DNA of 64,000 nucleotides, taken from NCBI RefSeq assembly GCF_020520425.1, contig NC_079492.1:112813157-112877156 (forward strand), given 5' to 3'. The notes beneath the pieces are model-generated. The model saw only the letters and a list, made by a program, of their open reading frames with translations, made no database searches and had not been told where the DNA came from. Both the position numbers and the translations under genes were made by a program. The number at the start of each line of letters is the position of its first letter. Positions within the stretch are counted from its first letter, which is position 1. The stretch comes from Spinacia oleracea. Taxonomy: Eukaryota > Streptophyta > Magnoliopsida > Caryophyllales > Amaranthaceae. Below are positions 10,327-59,415 of this stretch, piece after piece.

Positions 10327-10844
10327 TATAATTTTCGGCAATTATGGGCAAGAATGTGACTGATTTTTCTGCTCAAAAATCACTGTTTTATTGTATGAAT
10401 ATTTGTTGAACAACTCGTGTTATAAATTTATGACCCTAGGCATATATTTATAGAACAATGGAAAGGATTTCGAATCCTGTTAGAATACTAATTAATTAAT
10501 TAGAATCCTTTTAGAACTCTAAGTAATTAATTTAATCTTTTAGGATTAGGATTTAATCAATGCACGAATTCCGATAGCTTTAGGATTCGTATAGCACGCA
10601 CGCACGTAGCGCCCGAGCACCGCACGCCCATGCGCAAGCCTCGCGGCCCACGCACAGCGCTAAGGCCCACTGTCGCAGCCCATCGCTGAGCCTGTCGCGC
10701 GCGCCAAGCCTTGGCTGGGCCTGGTCGAGGCCTTGGAGTGTTGTTGGATGCGTGTGGCTTGCTGGGCGTCGGCCTGGCTTCGTGCTGGGCCTTCGTCTAG
10801 CAAGCCTCGTCCGATGCTAATTCGTACGATACGCTTTCCGATTA

Positions 10845-11155
10845 AATTCCCGATTCCGGAATTCATTTCCGATACGAACAATATTTAACATTTCCGATTC
10901 CGGAATTAATTTCCGTTTCGAACAAATATTTAATATTTCCATTTCCGGAATTATTTTCCAATTCCGATAATATCCGATTCTGACAATATTTCCGTTTCCG
11001 GCAATATTTCCGATTCCGGTAATATTTCCATTTCCGATAATATTTTCCGATACGTACTATGTTTCCGTTTCCGGCAACATCTACGACTTGGATAATATTT
11101 ATATTTCCGTTACGATCCATATTTCCGTTTCCGGCAATATCATCGTTTCCGGAGT
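10845..11155 (-). repeat. Degenerate TTTCCGATTCCGG minisatellite inside the LTR
   Basis: About 15 degenerate units of roughly 20 bases built on TTTCCGNTTCCGGNAATA. The same array is present in the sister LTRs at 40795-41060 and 42585-42860, so it belongs to the LTR family. Confidence 0.75.
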
Positions 11156-39963: not shown

Positions 39964-41390
39964 TGTTAGCATGGTTGTTAAACTCCCGATTAGGATCTTA
40001 TGATTCTACGATCCAAAAACACGCCACCGATCCGGATCTTAGGTAGGATCTTAATGTGTGTAGGATCTTACGATCCTACCTCGATAAAAATTTTGAGTGG
40101 TGGGATCTTAATACGATCCTGAACCGAACAAGAACAAGTAAAGAGCTCCAAATGTCTCCCCTCCGTAGATAGTCCACAACACGTTCGGATTCGCCTTAGG
40201 TTCAACCAACTAGGATATTATCTAAGGTTTGGGAACTCACAATATGTGATAGGCAAATATTAAACTCTATTGAATTTAATGTCTTATCAAAGTTGTTAAA
40301 TATGTGATCATTAACCTCATATTTATAGGGTGGAAATAGAGAAGTTTATTCCTACTAGGAGTCGATTAACTAAACTCATTAGGATTCTAGTTAAACACAA
40401 CCACTTAGTATTCTAGGAATAATCAAACACTAATTAAGTATTAGATTCATCCTAGAATTCTAATTATGTAGGATTTAGGAAAACGAACAACTTACGGCCC
40501 AAGTAATCTTGGCGCCTAAGTTGATGACATGCGTGTGGGTTTGGGCCTTGTTGCGCAAGGCTAGCCTTGGCGCCCACGCAGCCTTGGCGCCCACGAAGCC
40601 TTGGCGTGTATGTTGCCTTTGCTCGCAGCCAATGCTGCCTTGGCTCGCAGGCCACGCTGGGCCTTGTGCCTGGCGTTGGGCCTTTTGCCTGGCACTGGCT
40701 TATCGAGCTTGCGGGCCTTGCTCGTCGAGCGATTGGCTGGCTCGCTTGCCGGTCTGTCGCTCGTCATGCTTCCGATTCGTTTTTCGATCCCGAAATTTAT
40801 TTTCGATTCGAACAATATTTACCTTTCCGATAATATTTCCGATTCCGACGATGTTTCCGATTTCGAGAATGTTTTCAATTCCGATAATATTTCCGTTTCC
40901 GACAATATTTCCGATTCCGGTAATATTTCTATTTCAGTTAATAATTTCCAATACGAACCATATTTCCGTTCCCGGCAATATCTTCAACTTTAATAATATT
41001 TATATTTCCGTCATGAACCATATTTCCGTTTCTGATAATATCTTCATTTCCAACAGATATTCTTTCGTTTTCTTTTGATGATTTTAGCTCCCACTGGAAC
41101 CAAGATCCATCATTTCCGAATGACATAAATAGAGTACTTGATGAATATTATATTCACTTAAATACTTGATGCGTTCACGCACTATTTGTGTGACCCTACG
41201 GGTTCAGTCAAGAGCAAGCTGTGGATTAATATTATTAATTCCACTTGAACTGAAGCAGCCTCTAGCTAGGCATTCAAATTACTTGATCTCACTGAATTAT
41301 TAACTTGTTAATTAATACTGAACCGCATTTATTAGACATAGCATTAAATGCATTAAATGGAAACTTGGACCAAGTGCATTATTTCTTTCA
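39964..41390 (-). repeat. copia LTR (family B) with attached primer binding site
   Basis: It begins TGTTAG at 39964 and ends TTTCTTTCA at 41390. From 40119 rightward it matches the solo LTRs at 9749 and 41721. Between 39970 and 40118 the usual LTR sequence is replaced by GATCTTAYGATCC-type repeats, a small insertion. Because a primer binding site lies directly to its left, it is the 5' LTR of a leftward element whose body is lost at 39721. Confidence 0.75.
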
Positions 41391-41720: not shown

Positions 41721-43196
41721 TGTTAGGTTATGAACAATATAAACAATATATTCATGCGGAAAAACCATAAAGCCAGTAATCCAAATTAATTGCCACATTG
41801 TCAATTAGCATAATTTAGGGTACATACAATGTGATGTGTGCCTTCCATAGCTGCTCCCAAACCGAACAAGAACGAGTTTTAGAGCTCCAATCGTCGCCCC
41901 TCCGTAGATAGTCCACATCACGTTCAGATCCTCTTTAGGTTCAACCAACTAGGATATTTATTAAGGTTTTATGCACTCGCGGGGTTAGGCTATGAATTAT
42001 GTTCTCCCTTGAACACAATCTATGTAAAGTATATTGTATGGGTATTATAAATTTTGAATACAAATCACATATTTATGGAGTAGGAAAAAGAGACATAGAG
42101 TTCTACTAGGGAACCAATTACTAATCCTATCAGGATTACAATTTAATTATAATTATGGGATTAATAAAACACCTAGTGTTTGAATCTTATCCTAACTATC
42201 TAATTCTAGTAGAAGCAGGAAAAATATACTTTAGGTCTATGTTACTTGGCACCTAAGTAGTCGTACAAGACTTGGTGCACAAGATGAACGCCACCAACGC
42301 AGCCACGAAGGTCCACTGGCGTGCGCGCCTGGCCAGGCCCAAGAGAGCCTCGTTGTGGCCTTCGGCCTACTGCTCGTTGCTGCTTGTCGTGGCCCATTGC
42401 ACGAAGCTTGTCATTGGCCCATAACACAAAGCCCACGCCTAGCTGGGCCTTTGTCCTTGGCATTGGCGCCGGGCCTTTGTCCTTGGCATTGGCGCTGGGC
42501 CTTGTGCCTAGCGATGTGCGTGCGGCCTTTGCTCGTTGAGTGATGGGCCGGCTCCCTTCTCGGCTTATCACTCGTCGTGCTTTCGATTCGTTTTCCGATT
42601 CCGGAATTTATTTCCTTTCGAACACATATTTAAGTTTCCGTTAATATTTCCGATTCCGGTAATAATTTCCTATTCCGACAATATTTTCCATTCCGGTAAT
42701 ATTTCCGTTTCCGGCAATATTTTTGATTCCGGCAGTATTTCTATTTCCGATTCCGATACGAACCATGTTTCCGTTTCCGACAACATCTACGACTTGGATA
42801 ATATTTATATTTTCGTCATGAACCATATTTCCGTTTCCGGCAACATCTTCATTTCCTGAATATTCTTTACTTTGCCTTTTGACGATTTCAGCTTCCACTG
42901 GAACCGAGATCCGTCATATCCGAATGATCATAAATAGGGTGCTTTAATGAAAAATATATTCACTTAAATACTTGATCCGTGCACGTACTATTTGTGTGAC
43001 TCTACGGGTTCAGTCAAGAGTAAGTTGTGGATTAATATTATTAATTCCACTTGAACTGAAGCGGCCTCTAGCTAGGCATTCAGTTCACTTGATTTCACTG
43101 AATTATTAACTTGTTTAATTAATAATGAACCGCATTTGTTAGACTTAGCATTAAATGCATAAATGAAAACTTGGACCAAGGGCATTATTTCCTTCA
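41721..43196 (-). mobile_element. Solo copia LTR (family B) with perfect 5-bp target duplication
   Basis: It begins TGTTAGG, ends TCCTTCA, and is flanked by GTAAT at 41716-41720 and 43197-43201. The internal minisatellite (TTTCCGATTCCGG) lies at 42585-42860. A GGCCTTTGTCCTTGGCATTGGCGC stretch is duplicated near 42450 and 42475. Confidence 0.9.
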
Positions 43197-49516: not shown

Positions 49517-51339
49517 TCATACAAGAGAAAGACCGTGACCATCCTTTAGAGATGTCTTGTCATTGACAGGAAAGAGCTCCAAGGTCTTGAGGGGTCTTCT
49601 AGAGGGATGATACTCATCATCATGGTCATGATTATCATGATGATGATGATCTCCTGATCGCACCGCCATCCAATCATCATCATAGTCATGATTTGTGATC
49701 ATAGACTTCATCATTGGCATTGTATTTTCCATTCCATATTTTGCATCCGAAGTGTACTCCTGGTTCCATGTGTATGTATTTGTCATCCGTGGGACTAATG
49801 TATCTTCTGCCCTTGTCTTATCATTTAAATTTTCCAACCAAAAAATAAAAAAACCATATCAATATATCAGACGGCATAAGTAATTATACCAATAAATTAT
49901 TTATAATTTCTTATAGAACATCATTTTTTTAAGGAAAATTTGATTCTAAAAATATAACTTTTAAGCGATCTGCTTAAAAAGAGCTGACTTTATGTTTATC
50001 TAAGAATAACACAACATTTTGGATCTATCTTCTTAGGGCTCCCCGTCATTTAAACATTTTTTCGTTATATAATTAAGAAGAAGATTAAAAATATTGTAGC
50101 ATATTATCTATTTTAGCAAGTTATTACAGAGGAAAGCCTTTTAAAAGAAGATAGGTCCAAAAGGTTGGGTTATTCTTAAATAAACCTAAAGTCAGTCATT
50201 TTTTAAGCAGATCCCTCAAACGTTGTGTTTTTAGAATCAATTTTTCCTTTTTTAAAACGCTCCCTACCTTTATAATTGGGTTTCGACCATCAATATTTAC
50301 CTAATTAAGTTTTATTTTTTTGTTGCAAATGAGCAAAGGACAATAATAAATTACAAACCGGGAAGACTGAAGAGATTCGAACGTGAAACCTATCATATTT
50401 AGGCCCACAGTATTAACAACTAGGTTAAGACATTATTGATATTATTTACCTAATTAAGTTAAGTAAACAAAAAATGAAGAATGTTTGGTAGGGTTAAAGT
50501 AGGTTGATGTATAAAAGGAAAAGTACTGTAGTTGCAGCTAAACTCACTAGATCTGCCCCCTAAAAGGTGAATGCTACAAGTTGTCATCCATCATGTCTAA
50601 ACTTAACCACCTGAAAGAATCTAAATATATTGATCGAGCAAAGAATCTTGTTAGTTAACATAACCCCCTTCAGAATATTCCTTTTTTAGTCATACTATAA
50701 ACTACAATTTTGAATCAAATTTTAAAGAACTGGTTCCAAATATAAGCAACCTTATCCATATCAGTATTAGTAATTTGCTGTTAATTTGAGTGGTACATTA
50801 CTCAAGTAAATGTGTAGTATAAGTACCTGATGAGCAGCAAAGCAAGGAGAGTTGACAACAGGAGGAAGCTGATGATGGAATAAGCCAAGAGAAGACGGTG
50901 TCGGACCGCAACAAGATAGTGGTGGTGGTAGTGGTAGTGGTAGTGGTAGTGGTAGTGGTAGTGATGGCGGTAGAGGCAGTGGTTGATCGAAGTTAAGATG
51001 ATGAAGGAAATTACTATGATGTTGGAAATGTTGATGATGATCAAATGGAGGAAACATATGATTATGATGATGATGATGACTTGAAAACATCAATTGGTTA
51101 TGTTGTTGAAGTTGTTTGCCAAGAAGTTTTTTCCTAAGCTTTTGTCTATCTCTAGCCTTATGATTTTGGAACCAATAAAATACATTTTTACCTTCAATCT
51201 TTCCATAAAGGGAAAGATGGGAAGTAATCTGCTGTATTTGAGCTGCATTTGGTGTTCGAACACCGCCTCGATACATCTCTTCTAATATCATCACTTGTTC
51301 TGGTGTTGGACACCATCTTGTTGAGGCTGCTGGTGACAT
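49517..51339 (-). CDS. WOX3: WUSCHEL-related homeobox protein, WOX3/PRESSED FLOWER type
   Basis: Exon 1 is 51339-50827 and exon 2 is 49816-49517. The donor GTACTT (50826) and the only in-phase acceptor (ATAAG before 49816) give about 270 residues. PRS of Arabidopsis has 244. Residues 1-70 start [15 protein letters not shown] and hold the WOX homeodomain: helix 1 EEMYRGG, helix 3 [17 protein letters not shown]. The [14 protein letters not shown] start and [10 protein letters not shown] end are diagnostic for WOX3. A His-rich stretch and a (Pro-Leu)n repeat fill the rest of exon 1. Exon 2 has another His/Asp-rich stretch and the WUS box TLELFP preceded by RPLK, close to the C-terminus. The protein is a nuclear transcription factor acting in lateral/marginal cells of leaves and floral organs. 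No stop or frameshift is seen. The exact exon 2 start is the least certain point. Confidence 0.92.
49817..50826 (-). other. WOX3 intron (about 1 kb)
   Basis: Bounded by GT (50826) and AG (49817). It contains a reverse SINE at 50312-50440 and an inverted pair of GGATCTATCTTCTTAGG / GATAGGTCC-like blocks at about 50018 and 50150. Confidence 0.7.
50312..50440 (-). mobile_element. tRNA-derived SINE in the WOX3 intron
   Basis: On the - strand: ATGTCTTAACCTAGTTGTTAA (A-box region), CACGTTCGAATCTC (B box), then TTTGTAATTTATTATTG and GCTCATTTGCAACAAAAAAA. It has the same tail as the SINE at 18083-18204. Confidence 0.75.
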
Positions 51340-51865: not shown

Positions 51866-52715
51866 ATTATAATAATTTAAATTTTTTTATTAATAATATT
51901 ATTATAAAATAATAACAATAATATTTCAATAACAGAAAAATATAAAAATAATTAAAGTAGCTTAAAAATATATTTAAAATGCTAAGTGGTAGATTCGGAT
52001 ATCCGGATACAATGGGATATCAGAATAGACATTCATGAGTTAGAAACGAAGTACCATTTTCGGTATATATGGACGCACTCATGCACCACCTAGAGGAATT
52101 TGAAATCGATCACTTTAATTATCGACATTCATCATTGAGAAATAAAGTTGAAATTAATGATGTTTTAGGAATTAAAAAAAGTAAAGGGGGGTAGATGCTA
52201 TAATATGCCTAAAATCACGCAAACATATAAAAAAGTCAATAATTATTTGCATTTTCACACTTAATATATAATTTTATACCTGCACACGCTTGAAATATCA
52301 ATTGTATAACATCGTGCAAATGGTTATGACATATAGAAGATCCATAAATACTTATTGGAGATCAGAAGGTGGTTGTCGGAATTCAAAATTCTATATGAAC
52401 ACACATTTGAAGATCTATATATACCGGGAATAACATGAAGTTGAAGTGGAAGAACATGGTGAGTTAATAAAACAAATGAAATAAGATGGATGGAAAAACA
52501 AGACATGTAAATTGTAATAGAAGACAATTAATTTATATACAGTAAACAAGTCCGTTCCACTATCATATTAGCAATAATGTATACAATTTAAATAATAATT
52601 AACAAAATAATATTTTATAATAATAATAAAAAATAACAATAATAATAATATGATAAATAATAGTCCTAAATAATGGACAATAAAAATGACAACAATACAA
52701 AAAAAAATATGGTTA

Positions 52716-52716
<1 letters not shown>
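51866..52716. other. AT-rich spacer upstream of the LINE pair
   Basis: No gene. ATAATAATA-type low complexity increases toward the right. Confidence 0.5.
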
Positions 52717-52797
<81 letters not shown>

Positions 52798-52820
52798 TAA
52801 AATAATAATAATAATAATAT
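52717..52820. repeat. (ACT)n then (TAA)n microsatellite
   Basis: About 10 units of ACT followed by about 16 uninterrupted ATA/TAA units, a TTAAA break and six more TAA units. It forms the left flank of the LINE at 52824. Confidence 0.9.
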
Positions 52821-52823
52821 TAG

Positions 52824-55800
52824 GCGATTAGGGCACGATAATCATGTGCCTTTAGGGTACGTTCCCGTCGTTTATCCAAGGGGCTCCGGCGACGGCGTCG
52901 GCTTTCCAGTGTCAGGTGACGACGGCTAAGGGTCAGGCGACGGCAATCAGGCTGGTTCCAGGCGGTTCCAGGCGGTTTTAGGTGGGCTTTGCTGGCGGTT
53001 ATTCAAGTGTCGACGGGAACTTTCTGGCTGTCTCAAGTGTCGACGGCTTTTTCCGGTGGGCTAGGACGGTATCTCAGGCGTTTTCCGGTGGTCTAGGACG
53101 GCATTTCGGGTTCCAGTTTGTTGTTACGACCAGTTTCCGGCGAGTGGGTGTTGGTTTTTCATATCAGCAGTTTCCGGCAGTGTGTCGATCAGGTTGTGTG
53201 AGTTCGTTTGTCCGGCCATTCGTGTGTGTTTGGGTGATTGATCAGGTACGACGGCTAGCTGGTTCGACGCTACTGCAATTCGTGGGTTCAGGTTGGTGTT
53301 TCTTGTGGTCAGTTTGGTATTTCAGTTTGGTGTTCGTTGTTACTGTGGGTTGTTTTGGAAGCGTGTTGTGTGGTCAGATTGGTGTTTGGTGAGTTCATTT
53401 TGGTGGTTTGGGGTGTACGAGTTCAGCTTTTGGAGTTCAGCTTTGGTGGTTCTGTTTTGGTGGTTTGTGGGTGTACAAGTTCAACTTCGTCGGTGTTGGT
53501 GTTGGGTGTGTCAGTCAGCTTTGGTAGTTTTGGTTAGCTTGTCTCGGCAGTTGTTGTTTGGTTTTCCGGCGAGTGATCGTTGTGGTTGGTAGTGGGTACG
53601 TTGGTGTTACTTTTTGGTTGAAGTGCTTTGATATGGCGGCTTCCGTGGAGAAGTTTCATTGCCCTTTTGTGGGTCTTAGCGGGTGCCAGGATGGAGGTGG
53701 GCGTGGTATGGTAAGGAGTTCTCTGATCACTCACTTACGGGATCGTCATTGTTGCTCTGGTGTGCGGGATGTAACCCGTCATTCCCTTACTACCAATTTG
53801 CAGGTTTTTTCTGCGGCTGAGGTGACTTTTCGTCGTATGGGAATTTGGCTGTGTGGAGATTGTTTCAAGACGCATACTCATCGTACTAGGTGTCGACATG
53901 GCAGTGGTTCTAGTACTGTTTTTGTGGACCCACCTAATTCCGGGGATGGTATTATTCGTTTTATTCTCTACGGTATTCAAAAGCCTCAAGCTCCTACTGC
54001 CGAGCTGTCTTCTTCTGATGCGCCTCGAGAACATCATTTTTCTTTTGATGTTGCTCTTCTAGACACTTTATTGTCTAAGCGGTTGCGTTCTGTGAAATCC
54101 ATCCCTCCCAAATGTCGTTTGGGTTTTTCGCGAGTTCTAAAAGGGGCGCTTGATAAGGTGATTTGCAGACCAGATGACATTGCTTGTTGGGTTCAGTTGC
54201 TTGTGTTGCCTCTTTGTGTGCTCTCGACTTTTTCTCCGCGAAGTAATCGCGAGTGTTCCTCTGGTGTTAGGCGGCGGCGACAGGAAGAGAGTATCACCTC
54301 TGCTATTCGTTCTTGGGGTGAGCCTGGTGGTTTTGAGCAGCTTGTCATCGACACATTGGCTAGCGTGTCTCCATTGGATGTTGACGAAGACCAGGATTTG
54401 GCGGAGCGTAATATTAAGCAATGCAAGAGAAAGATTTCTGACGGTCACTACACTGCTGCTGTTAGAGTTCTTTCGTCCTCTGGCCTTGCTCCTTACTGTG
54501 GTGCTACTCTGGCTGATTTGCAAGAAAAACACCCTTCCTTTCCGGTCCCTACCTTACCGGATATCCCTGTTGATCATCACCTTACTGCTTCATCCGCTGT
54601 TGTGTTGGAGTAGATTAGGGGCTTTCCGCGGGGTACTTCGTGCGGTAGAGATGGCTTGCGTGCTCAACACCTTTTGGATTGCTTGGGTGGTGCTGCTGTA
54701 GCTGTTTCTGATGAGTTGGTGGATGCTATTACTCAGGTAGTTAATCTCTTTCTTGCTGGAAAGTGTCCTGGTGAGCTTGGAGGATATATTGTTAGTGCTC
54801 CTCTTACGCCGCTTGTTAAGCCTGGTGGTGGTATTCGGCCTATTGCTGTGGGCACTGTTTGGAGGCGCCTTGTTTCTAAGGTCGGGGCTGTTTTGATTGG
54901 CCCGCGTTTAGGAAACTACTTCGGAGGGCTTCAGTTTGGTGTTGGGGTTCCAGCTGGTGGTGAGGCTATTCTCCATGCTGTCAATCGTTTGGTTGAGGCT
55001 CGTGGGGCTGATGTTGGCCTCTCTATGTTATTGGTGGATTTTCGGAATGCGTTCAATTTAGTTGATCGATCGGCTTTGTTGCGTGAGGTTCGGCTACACT
55101 GTCCTGCTCTTTCGTGTTGGGTTGAATTCTGCTACTCTTCTCCAGCACGGCTGTACTATGGGGAGCATACCTTGTGGTCTTGTCAAGGTGTGCAGCAAGG
55201 GGATCCTCTCGGCCCTTTGCTTTTCTCTCTGGTTCTACATCCACTGGTGTGTCGAATCAGAGACTCTTTTGATCTATCTCTTCAGGCTTGGTACTTGGAC
55301 GATGGCACTATCGTTGGTGATACTTTGGTGGTTGGAAAGGTCTTGGAGTTGATTTTGGAAGAGGGTCCTCATTTAGGTCTCCATGTTAATGTTGAGAAGA
55401 CAGAGGTTTTCTGGCCCTCAGAGGACCCACGTAGTCGTCTAGAGGGTGTCTTTCCTTCGGATATTGCTCGTCCAGCGCTTGGTGTTAAGTTGCTTGGTGG
55501 TCCAGTCAGTACGGATTCCTCTTTTTGTAAGGAGTTGGTTTCGCAGCGTGTGTCGAAGACTGTTGTGTTGATGGATGCTGTGGCTAAGCTTAATGATCCC
55601 CAGTGTGAGTTGTTGCTTCTTCGTGCGTGTACTGGAGTCTCTAAACTCTACTTTGCTATGCGCACTTGTCCGCCTCATCTTTTCGAAGCGGCCCAATTAT
55701 CCTTTGATGTGGCTCTTCGGGCTTCTTTAGAGCGTATCGTGACTGCTTCGGGACCTGGGTTCGGTGACTGGCAATGGCGTCTTGCCACCTTGCCTTATTC

Positions 55801-56868
55801 TTATGGAGGATTGGGTGTTTATTCAGCTGGTGATGTTCGGTATTATGCTTTTCTTGCATCTCGTTTGCAGTCTTCTGGTTTGCAGGATTCGCTTCTTCGG
55901 CTTTCAGGTGTTGATGGTCGGGGACCGGCCTTTGATGATGCTCTTGGTCTTTTCAATAGGACCGTGGATACCGACCTTATGAGTAGCCCTAGTGAGATCG
56001 CTGCCCCCACACTCATGAAGAAATTGGCAGACATATATTTCACGAAGGTTACGGATGATGCGGTATCCGCCTACTCCTTATCTTCACGTCATGTTGCCTT
56101 ATGGAAATCACAGCAGGGGGATCACTCCTCAGCTTGGTTGCGGGCAGTCCCCATCTCAGGTTTGGGCCAGACTATGAACGGTAAGACTTATCGTTCGGTT
56201 CTTTGCTATCGGTTGGGTATTCCTTTGTTCTCTGATTCGGCGTCGTGTTCTGCTTGCTCTCGGGTTTTTGATGGGGACATTTATGGGGATCATGCCGTGT
56301 CTTGTGCTGGGATCGTGGGTATCAAACATCGGCATAATGTTGTTCGTGATACCCTTTTGGATATTTGCTATCGGTCGGGGATTTCTGCTCGCAAGGAGGT
56401 TGATGTTGGGCTGACTAGTGAGGGTGATGGAGCTCTTCGTCCTGCAGATATATTGCTTTATTCATGGGATGGCGGTCTAGATGTGTGTGTTGACTTGACT
56501 GGGTCTTCTCCTATGACGCAATCTGGGTTGTCAGGCTTCGTTCCGGGTCGGGTTGTGGCGGTTGCAGCGCAGCGAAAGCTGGATAAGTATGCGGCACGTT
56601 GTAGGGCTTTGGGTTACGGTTTCTTTCCTTTTTCCTTCTCTTCTTTTGGGGAATTAGAGAAAGGGGCAGTTTCTTTGCTGAAGCGGGTCCAGGCGTACTC
56701 CAGGGCTCAAGACATTGGGGCGCGGGCTGCTGCCCACATTTTCAGCAGGATCGGGTTCGCCATAGCTAGAGGAGTGGGGGCCCAGATTGTATCTCGGCTC
56801 CCCTCCAACTTCTTGTAGTCCACTTGATCTTTGTCGCTTGTTAAGCATGTAACGTTTTGGTGTTTTCT

Positions 56869-56905
<37 letters not shown>
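52824..56905 (+). mobile_element. LINE of the restriction-like-endonuclease type inserted in (TAA)n
   Basis: A GC-rich, Gly/Val-coding-biased 5' untranslated region (52824-53632) is followed by one long frame (53633-56818, one internal TAG), a 50-base 3' UTR and a tail of about 12 TAA/ATA units (56867-56903). The left flank is also (TAA)n. There is no LTR and no poly(A). Base composition (near 50% GC) contrasts sharply with the AT-rich neighbourhood. Domain order and endonuclease type set it apart from the plant L1 and RTE clades. Confidence 0.8.
53633..56818 (+). pseudogene. LINE polyprotein: zinc finger, reverse transcriptase, CCHC, restriction-like endonuclease (one stop)
   Basis: The start at ATG 53633 (MAASVEKFHCPF) is preferred over the alternative 25 codons upstream. 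Codons 10-39 form a C2H2-like finger (C10, C18, H34, H39), and a second Cys/His cluster follows (CGDCFKTHTHRTRCRH). TAG at 54611 (codon 327) interrupts the frame, which stays open on both sides. After it come RT motifs LVDFRNAFNLVD (A), CQGVQQGDPLGPLLF (B) and AWYLDDG (C, catalytic Asp pair). Then CSACSRVFDGDIYGDHAVSC gives C-X2-C-X11-H-X3-C, followed by HRHN, RPADIL, VDLTG and QRKLDKY. This matches the R2/R4 RLE core (H-N, R-PD, D, K-KY). The catalytic Asp of RPAD and the Asp 15 residues later are present. No APE motifs (SGDFN, SDH) occur. Apart from the single TAG the protein looks intact and recently active. Confidence 0.85.
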
Positions 56906-56906
<1 letters not shown>

Positions 56907-57172
56907 CAATATTAAGAAAAAAAATAACTATATTAACATTAATGGGAAAATTTAATAACAAAAATAAAAACAATAGATGACAACATCACAATATCTTCCA
57001 CTCTAAGGAGAAATATATGCTCAAGTCACAATTACAAGGGTTTCTTCTTCCTCTCTCTGGAGGCGCACGTTAGGGTGAATCTACTATCGTGCACCCATCA
57101 CCATTAATGGGTATGAAAAGAAATCTGCGACCCGTTCTTCACCTCAAGCTAGTGGTACCACTCTAGAACACA

Positions 57173-59415
57173 ATGCAACCCAAAAAAAATGCAACTTTAG
57201 GCCATAATTCAGCTCTACCTCAACCTCAAGCAACAGGCAGTTCTTCTTCCATGGAGACGTCGGGTGAGTTGATTTCTTCTCCTCTGGTTCATGCTAGTGC
57301 TGATTTAATACTTATTGAACTCCATAATACTATCTTGCAATATCACCACTCACTTGGTATCCCTATTCCCACAATGACCCAAAATGAGTCGTTATGTTCA
57401 AATCTAGAGGGCCGAGGGGGGGTACGTGGGTTTGCTAGTCGAAATAGTGGAGTGTCACAGGTAGGGGTGTTAACGAGCCGAGCCGAGACCAAACTTAGGC
57501 AAGCTCGGCTCGAGCTCGAAACTTCTAACCTTAGGCTCGGCTCGAGCTCGAAGCTCGGCGAGCCTTGAAAACTGAGCTCGAGCTCGGGCTCGAACCTAGG
57601 CTCGGTTCGGCTCGAGCTCGGGCTCGAAACCAAGCTCGATTCGGCTCGTGCTTTGTTCAAGCATAGGAATAACTGTAGCCCAATTCAAAATAAGCTAAGC
57701 CCAAAATAGACACAAAATATTAGACTTTATAGGGCCCAATAAATGGTATTATTTGATGCCATATCCAAACAGCCTAATAGTCATTTAGTTTTATAAGTGA
57801 TTCTAGTTGGCTACTTATTTGCTTTTGCCGATATGGGACAATGAAACTTTGTCAGTAATAAAGTCTCAACTACTGCCATTAACAAATGTGATTCTCTATT
57901 TTAAATTGTCCTCCAAAAGTGTAATGTAACGTGCACAATTGTTTGAGATTTGGTTGAATGCCATATTGCCAACAAATAAATCCCATGTTCATTCCTTCTA
58001 TAGTTCTATAATAAGCCTTAGACCAGTCATGGCAGCTCCAATGGTCGTTCCCCTGAAGGAATTTTCAGCAATTGGTGTATCAAGAACTCTTAGATCCTCA
58101 TATTTGGGGGTCAGTCCTTTAGTCACTTTACATTCGCACCCCTTTCCATTTCCTCATCAAGACCTTGACGAAATGCTTCAAAGAGAAACACCTCAGCTTG
58201 ACAAACCAAATGGCCCATATAAAGTATTATTATTGCAATATGAGTTTAATTTATATGCATCTCATTCTTTCATTCTTTTGCAATAACCAATGTGGGATAG
58301 TCTTAAGTAGTAAAAATTACAGTATTATTAAAGCTCGAGCTTGCTCACGAGCTTTCGAGCCGAGCTTAGGATAGCTCAGGCTTGGCTTGTTAAGATCTCG
58401 AGCCGAACCCGAGCTCGAGTCGAGCCCGCCCGAGCCGAACTTTGACCGAGCTTTAGCGAGCCGAGTATCGAATAGTTCACGAGCAGGCTCGGCTCATTAA
58501 CACCCGGAGGGTGAAGAGGTTAATGAGAGGATTAGAACTTTGGCTGTGCAACTAGAGGAAACTTTGGTACAAAGTAACCAGATTTGTGACCCAATTCAAG
58601 GTGTTGTTGGTAGTCAGCAGGTTCAAAGAAGGTTGAATTTGCAGGGCCCTCCTATGGTGGCTCCTACTACAATTGTTCCTACCTAGTCCAGTTTGTTCCA
58701 ACGTTCCCCACTGACTAGTAAGGGAGCATCTCTTCAATTTGTTTCCCCAATTTTGAAGGAAGGGAAGAAAATGACACAATTACAAAAAGTTGAGGTTGAT
58801 GCCATGACTAAGAAGTGGATTAGGTCTCTGGTGATGTACATAGTGGGTGAAGTTCCTACTATTGCATCTATTTAAAGATACATTGCTGCAAATTGGAGTC
58901 ATGTCAGTGCCCCTAGTGTTTATTTGCATGATGATGGATACTTTGTGTTACATTTTAGTTCTATTAAAGAGAGAAATGAAGTGTTGTGTGGTGGACCTTA
59001 TACTTTTTCAATAGACCAATAATCATCAAACCCTGGTCTCCTGATTTCAACTTCTATGAGGAAGTTCTTAGGGTCATTCCTTTGTGGATTAGGCTTCCTA
59101 ATCTGCCTCTTAACTGCTGGAGTTGTGATTCATTTAGCAGAATTGCTAGCTTACTTGGTGTTTTCTGTGTGTGCTGATGATTGTACCACTAGGCAACAGA
59201 GGGTGTCATTTGCAAGAATTTTGGTGGAAATGGATGTCATTGCTGAACTGCCAGAACACATTTTGGTTGAAGACATCAGTGGCAATGTGTTTAAACAGAA
59301 AGTTCAGTATGATTGGAAACCCACATACTGTCATAAATGTCAAATTCCAGGGCATAATTGTGAGGGAGTAAACCACTCTCACCCTCAACCTACAGGAAAG
59401 AACCACAGAGAGTGA
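57173..59415 (+). pseudogene. L1 ORF1 (nucleic-acid-binding protein) remnant
   Basis: It starts MQPKKNATLGHN at 57173, is interrupted by the 57462-58505 insertion, and resumes with EEVNERIRTLAVQLEE (58515). It includes the DUF4283-like domain (WIRSLVMYIVGEVPTI, IAANWSHVSAPSVYLHDDGYF, LHFSSIKERNEVL) and the zinc knuckle YCHKCQIPGHNC near 59330. Stops lie at 58684, 58873 and about 59021, and there is a frame change around 59050. Confidence 0.75.
57462..58505. mobile_element. hAT-like non-autonomous element with GAGCTCGAGCTCG core
   Basis: TAGGGGTGTTAACGAGCCGAG at the left and CTCGGCTCATTAACACCC at the right pair as inverted ends, of the same type as 12996-14062. The right end lacks the final CTA, and no 8-bp duplication is visible, probably a small deletion. 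Both arms are built of repeated GAGCTCGAGC / GGCTCGGCTC. The middle (57660-58320) is plain AT-rich. Confidence 0.75.

Follow-up and report, generated by a model that had tools for sequence, protein, structure and literature searches.

The available text of a 2022 review gives only L1 and RTE as the long interspersed nuclear elements (LINEs) of land plants (PMC9033089), and the accessible part of another source describes those of flowering plants as almost only L1 (PMC3747384). A 64,000-nucleotide stretch of the Spinacia oleracea genome (NC_079492.1, positions 112,813,157 to 112,877,156, forward strand; hereafter the window) carries at approximately 52820-56870 a non-LTR (long terminal repeat) retrotransposon of about 4.05 kb that is bordered by TAA repeats, and this locus raises the question of what kind of LINE it is and how it came to lie there. 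The element very probably belongs to a young and abundant spinach family of LINEs which carry a restriction-like endonuclease (RLE), are CRE/SLACS-like by reverse transcriptase (RT), and insert in one direction into (TAA)n microsatellites. We base this reading on gene anatomy, on kinship, on TAA in one orientation on both sides of the copies, on nesting in the TAA tails of other elements, and on insertion-free host repeats that bear TAA.

The window copy is composed of the following features, each given with the evidence on which it was called:

52717-52819, plus strand: 5' flanking target, (ACT)n and then (TAA)16 and (TAA)5, up to the 5' end of the element (sequence).
52820-53632, plus strand: 5' untranslated region (UTR), about 0.8 kb (sequence and other copies).
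53633-56818, plus strand: the sole LINE open reading frame (ORF), with one in-frame TAG inside (open reading frame).
53660-53749, plus strand: N-terminal C2H2-like zinc finger, C-X7-C-X15-H-X4-H (sequence).
54611-54613, plus strand: in-frame TAG of the window copy (homologue P0001 has no stop at the same place).
54818-55414, plus strand: RT core, PF00078 (RVT_1) (Pfam, E 3.5e-13).
56246-56305, plus strand: CCHC knuckle, C-X2-C-X11-H-X3-C (motif).
56327-56640, plus strand: RLE, RHN-X19-E-X13-RPAD-X14-D ... RKLDKY (motif).
56819-56870, plus strand: 3' UTR, 52 nt (sequence).
56871-56903, plus strand: 3' (TAA)11, tail or target ((TAA)n here in 41 of 41 copies).

The ORF comprises 1,061 codons, of which the TAG is the single break. 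A preliminary description of this DNA had passed over the TAG; the finger, the RT with its YLDD (55292-55303), the knuckle, RPAD-X14-D and QRKLDKY are all present where it had placed them. The finger pattern recurs in homologues P0001, P0006, P0009 and P0059 and found no match in P0095; Pfam gave no match to the finger in the window frames or in P0001, P0006 and P0059. Nor did Pfam report an apurinic/apyrimidinic endonuclease (APE) domain, whether in frames of the window (E <= 1) or in homologues P0001, P0006 and P0059 (E <= 0.5), in line with the lack of APE motifs first described. The best PDB sequence matches of the RT are R2 RTs, and the RLE fold appears in the predicted structure. With an RT followed by a CCHC knuckle and then a PD-(D/E)XK endonuclease, and no APE found, the description of a flowering-plant LINE with a restriction-like endonuclease is borne out. 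That an ordinary plant L1 or RTE element was misread, as the two superfamilies listed for land plants (PMC9033089, available text) might suggest, is next to impossible given the predicted RLE fold, the APE result and an RT distant from that of human L1 (mean identity 22.6%; the RT tree holds no RTE sequence). An Rfam scan of 52500-57200 returned a single chance-level match (E 7.9) and no known ribozyme family at the 5' end.

A protein search of the 894,210,420-base spinach assembly with a 720-amino-acid query yielded 2,900 candidates, of which 62 were scored. All 62 span at least query residues 1-712 or 2-720 at 96-100% amino acid identity, and 38 of them retain an open frame of 1,060 codons or more that no stop interrupts within the match; the closest homologous protein is likewise from S. 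oleracea (95% identity). Judged from these sequences, the spinach family is young and abundant. The copies examined number 41, namely the window copy and 40 of the 62, next after it in the match list, which were fetched with their flanks.

A run of (TAA)3 or longer lies no more than 60 nt past the stop codon in 41 of 41 copies. An adjoining 5' (TAA)n tract, read by eye, is present in 31 of 41, always in the same orientation; its length is 5-41 units with a median of 11 in the 28 measured copies (L012, L030 and L037, truncated within the ORF, are unmeasured), and none of these 28 has a (TTA)5 or longer tract near the 5' junction. The window copy conforms, with (TAA)16 at 52749-52796 and (TAA)5 at 52803-52817 on one side and (TAA)11 on the other, as had been described. 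Background was taken from the window itself, a genome-wide (TAA)10 count and eleven tracts on C1. Beyond the flanks of the element the window has no (TAA) or (TTA) run of five or more units, and the flanking repeats are therefore not local background. Genome-wide, the 30-mer (TAA)10 gave 24,233 + 24,204 matches, counted as overlapping windows; at about nine windows per tract, a figure from the eleven C1 tracts, this corresponds to about 5,300 tracts of at least 10 units, or about 0.03% of the genome. Set against that fraction, the frequency of TAA at both ends of the copies sustains the (TAA)n target preference that had been proposed.

The same ends could arise without target choice if (TAA)n were a tail encoded by the RNA or produced by slippage and the 5' TAA no more than a duplicate of the target site. 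The invariable 3' tract fits such an account, and TAA repeats also terminate a different LINE, the I element, according to the available part of PMC3747384. The 5' tracts of the 31 copies nevertheless need TAA in the target, and three lines of sequence evidence (nesting, the C1 tracts with their host repeat, and paralogous empty sites) indicate that the TAA tract preceded insertion. Nine of the 41 copies (L009, L012, L024, L028, L031, L033, L036, L044 and L045) lie immediately downstream of a different RLE LINE's 3' end and its (TAA)n, with about 50 nt between upstream tract and copy in L045. Upstream of L047 there is a 3'-UTR remnant and then (TAA)13, and the locus can be read as two insertions in succession, in the order host repeat, TAA, LINE remnant, TAA, full copy, TAA, host repeat.

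The eleven C1 tracts, each of at least 10 units, come from the initial 4.29 Mb of that sequence, and four of them lie next to an RLE LINE, by sequence match at L050, L051 and L057 (the region read upstream of L057 stops short of the 5' end of that copy) and by the 5' start motif, judged by eye, at L049. Three others (L053, L056 and L059) are insertion-free versions of one host repeat with the TAA tract intact, and this host repeat forms the 3' flanks of L038, L047, L023 and L057. On the 5' side, L053 aligns with the flank of L038 at a score of 53, the best of 500 shuffles reaching 38, and with the flank of L047 at 76% over 59 nt (E 3e-8), while L059 aligns with that of L023 at 70% over 120 nt (E 1e-6). 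Given copies nested in TAA tails of other elements, and insertion-free host repeats with (TAA)n, the tract would precede the element. The 5' tracts, the nesting and the insertion-free repeats together lead us to reject TAA as a mere tail, an account with very little chance of being correct.

To place the RT, we built a tree from the RT region only, with 42 sequences and 219 columns: 12 from the plant group, 17 and nine picked by hand from 120 CRE-like and 120 R4-like ones, respectively, three R2 and one L1 (human). An earlier version had dropped R2_Pm, R2_Bm and L1 for coverage. The animal groups were gathered by two further searches; the CRE-like one includes Octopus, Plutella and a barnacle protein, P0168, named 'Retrotransposable element SLACS protein', and the second includes Anolis and Penaeus RTs, which we take to be R4. 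The plant sequences separate from the rest with support of 96/98 and the CRE-like group with 91.6/91, and the split of plant and CRE-like sequences from R4-like, R2 and L1 has support of 99.8/100; R2 and L1 are not cleanly separated from each other. Mean RT identity of the spinach element is 37.5% to the CRE/SLACS-like animal RTs, against 18.3% to presumed R4 and 22.8% to R2. The spinach protein aligns with P0168 over its whole length (28% over 729 amino acids, E 2e-66), and P0048 with Plutella P0225 at 29% over 944 amino acids, the region before the RT included. On these RTs 'CRE/SLACS-like' is a fair name, the references being animal RTs of which one is named SLACS and none is an authenticated CRE, SLACS or CZAR. 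The predicted Plutella protein P0225 combines the CRE-like RT with a glycosyl transferase family 4 domain (PF00953), probably through a fusion of gene models.

Dong inserts into TAA repeats, and the preliminary description had accordingly called the element R4/Dong-like, an affiliation that the RLE, the single ORF and the insertion into TAA repeats would all favor. DongAg and DongBg are also recorded as inserting into microsatellites in the available part of PMC3636483. The RT tree rejects this affiliation, the spinach RT standing apart from the presumed R4 group by both identity and the 99.8/100 split, and membership of the R4 clade is very unlikely. The plant clade also falls outside R2 and L1 (one human sequence). 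As the RT falls outside the presumed R4 group, the TAA preference in common with Dong would then be parallel or deeply ancestral, and not evidence of kinship.

Plant relatives, for which a search had been proposed, were found: among the 120 listed of 1,666 matches the named proteins include Spinacia, Tanacetum, Saponaria, Silene and Ranunculus, with Tanacetum dominating the homologues. Public records label several of the Tanacetum family proteins 'ankyrin repeat-containing protein ITN1-like' or 'TNT 1-94', apparently a misannotation that arose by fusion. When translated upstream neighbors of spinach copies were placed in a tree with the plant proteins, the spinach sequences fell into at least three deep lineages. 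The window type groups with P0004, P0016 and P0026 of Tanacetum, and a second lineage unites L036 and L012 with P0095 and P0048, also of Tanacetum (split 98.7/99); the third is L024/L028/L033 (100/100). Since all three end in (TAA)n in spinach, a preference for this target probably goes back to their common ancestor. The two lineages common to Caryophyllales and Asteraceae point to a split older than those groups, unless transfer was repeated.

The preliminary description had left open whether the lineage is ancient or a horizontal arrival. A recent arrival from an animal or other eukaryote would suit the youth of the spinach copies (96-100% amino acid identity) and the fact that the closest named non-plant kin among the matches listed are animal. 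Against it, the plants form one clade with at most 45.2% RT identity to the CRE-like RTs, homologues occur also in Ranunculus, Silene and Saponaria, and the deep spinach lineages, two of them with Tanacetum members, favor old residence; of the two options the ancient one is thus preferred, and recent arrival is unlikely. A search of viral contigs found no relative, nor did a search of genome contigs with one family protein. With the family alignment A1, the genome contigs gave four distant kin (29-32%) on contigs of metagenome-assembled genomes, the printed stretches of which show no TAA run by eye. Two of these, L063 and L064 (32%, query residues 1-716), have an RPAD endonuclease and come from contigs placed in Spartobacteria and Verrucomicrobia bins, in all likelihood misbinned eukaryotic DNA.

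Several observations weigh against insertion of a CRE/SLACS-like family into TAA repeats as set out above. Ten of the 41 copies lack an adjoining 5' tract; L010 has an N gap there, L020 and L040 have a common foreign sequence upstream (probably an LTR insertion), L014, L029 and L039 are each joined to the ORF2 of another copy, and for L015, L018, L022 and L045 the cause is unexplained or unclear. The 5' tract is shorter than 10 units in 13 of the 28 measured copies, a length at which the background is that of the window only. The empty-site pairs (L053 for L038 and L047; L059 for L023) are paralogous repeat copies and not alleles, and alignment of the L038 left flank to L059 and to L056 did not stand out from shuffled sequence, 8 and 21 of 500 shuffles, respectively, scoring at least as high. 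TAA targeting was observed in spinach copies only, the confidence of the structure model is low outside the RLE (mean pLDDT 54), and the CRE-like and R4 references are so called by presumption, with no authenticated trypanosome CRE/SLACS or Repbase R4 compared.

The copies also vary among themselves. Many others start with (T)CTCTCAAAA-GGGGCGATTAGGGC or similar, and the window copy begins slightly later. Copies with similar ORFs (L009-L048) differ in their 5' UTRs: at many loci the blastn match to the window copy sets in no earlier than about 20 nt ahead of the ATG (element position 797), which suggests either exchange of 5' UTRs between copies or very rapid evolution of this region. Eight of the 41 (L024, L025, L031, L036, L037, L044, L046 and L048) have a shorter 3' UTR, often ending ...TTTTA-TAATAA, which may reflect internal priming or an inherited short end. 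At L014, L029 and L039 an upstream copy in the same orientation is broken off mid-ORF2 and fused to the 5' UTR of the next copy, possibly by template jumping during reverse transcription or by recombination.

In the established R2 scheme the RLE nicks the target and target-primed reverse transcription follows. On this model, recognition and nicking of the (TTA)n strand would fall to the N-terminal fingers and RLE of the spinach element, the 3' end of that strand would pair with UAA at the RNA 3' end and prime the first strand, and second-strand cleavage and synthesis would leave a short filler at the 5' junction. The (TAA)n left at the ends of each insertion could make copies into targets for later copies. 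We lean slightly toward a broader proposal, in which an old RLE LINE lineage, predating the split of Caryophyllales and asterids, persists in eudicots through a harmless TAA home and, by reuse of its own TAA ends, builds and renews its target, making it a main source of TAA microsatellites in spinach; that four of the eleven sampled long tracts adjoin such an element is consistent with this last point.

A large young RLE family in spinach stands beside the L1 and RTE which the available text of the 2022 review gives for land plants (PMC9033089). Target-specific RLE LINEs attract interest as enzymes for the insertion of DNA at specific sites; one adapted to plants and directed at microsatellites would be a novelty. 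The family would also help to account for the origin and upkeep of some TAA microsatellites of plants, repeats of a type that serves as genetic markers. A 2019 survey of spinach with MGEScan-nonLTR reported, in its available text, 642 full-length 'CRE' and 22 'R2' LINEs, 'CRE' being the commonest LINE class, and that main text does not have the whole words 'endonuclease', 'microsatellite' or 'AAT' (PMC6337768); its 642 'CRE' LINEs probably include the present elements. A Metrosideros genome appendix table assigns 72 bases to 'Dong-R4' and 424 to R2, 'Dong-R4' appearing nowhere else in the available main text (PMC13084152). Among the matches listed, no publication treats plant LINEs that are TAA-specific or carry an RLE, as far as their accessible text goes; a Repbase entry is possible.

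Elsewhere in the window, an 18/36-bp unit resembling AATATTTCCGATTCCGG forms three separate arrays within 32 kb (10842-11109, 40798-40981 and 42592-42750), and a (TAGTGG)11 tandem repeat lies at 50917-50983.

Among known systems, R2 resembles the spinach element in the order RT-knuckle-RLE and in predicted fold, but its mean RT identity is 22.8% and its target is 28S rDNA rather than a microsatellite. R4/Dong is alike in RLE, single ORF and insertion into TAA repeats, whereas the spinach RT lies outside the presumed R4 sequences. The CRE clade (CRE/SLACS/CZAR, Cnl1, MoTeR and FoTeR), in a comparison that included no authenticated CRE-clade sequence, is alike in RT kinship, through the protein named SLACS, and in the C-terminal CCHC and RHN...E...RPAD...D endonuclease; the spinach element differs in its flowering-plant host and in a (TAA)n microsatellite target as opposed to spliced-leader genes or telomere repeats. 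Plant L1 and RTE are also plant non-LTR retrotransposons, but carry APE and poly(A) or TTG-type tails according to the available parts of PMC3747384 and PMC9033089, where the spinach element has an RLE. The restriction-enzyme-like (REL) motif of the CRE clade is given in the available text of PMC12857005 as C[X1-3]C[X7-8]H[X3-4]C[X9-10]RHD/N.X19-33.E.X9-21.R/KPD.X12-14.D/E; that of spinach, C-X2-C-X11-H-X3-C-X8-RHN-X19-E-X13-RPAD-X14-D, keeps the CRE order with small spacing differences, including X11 in the knuckle against X7-8 or X6. A loose form of the motif occurs also in 101 of 120 presumed R4 proteins, and the motif therefore does not single out CRE. Within the clade, FoTeR, as described in the same text (PMC12857005), is alike in inserting into short (telomeric) repeats, with repeats on both sides.

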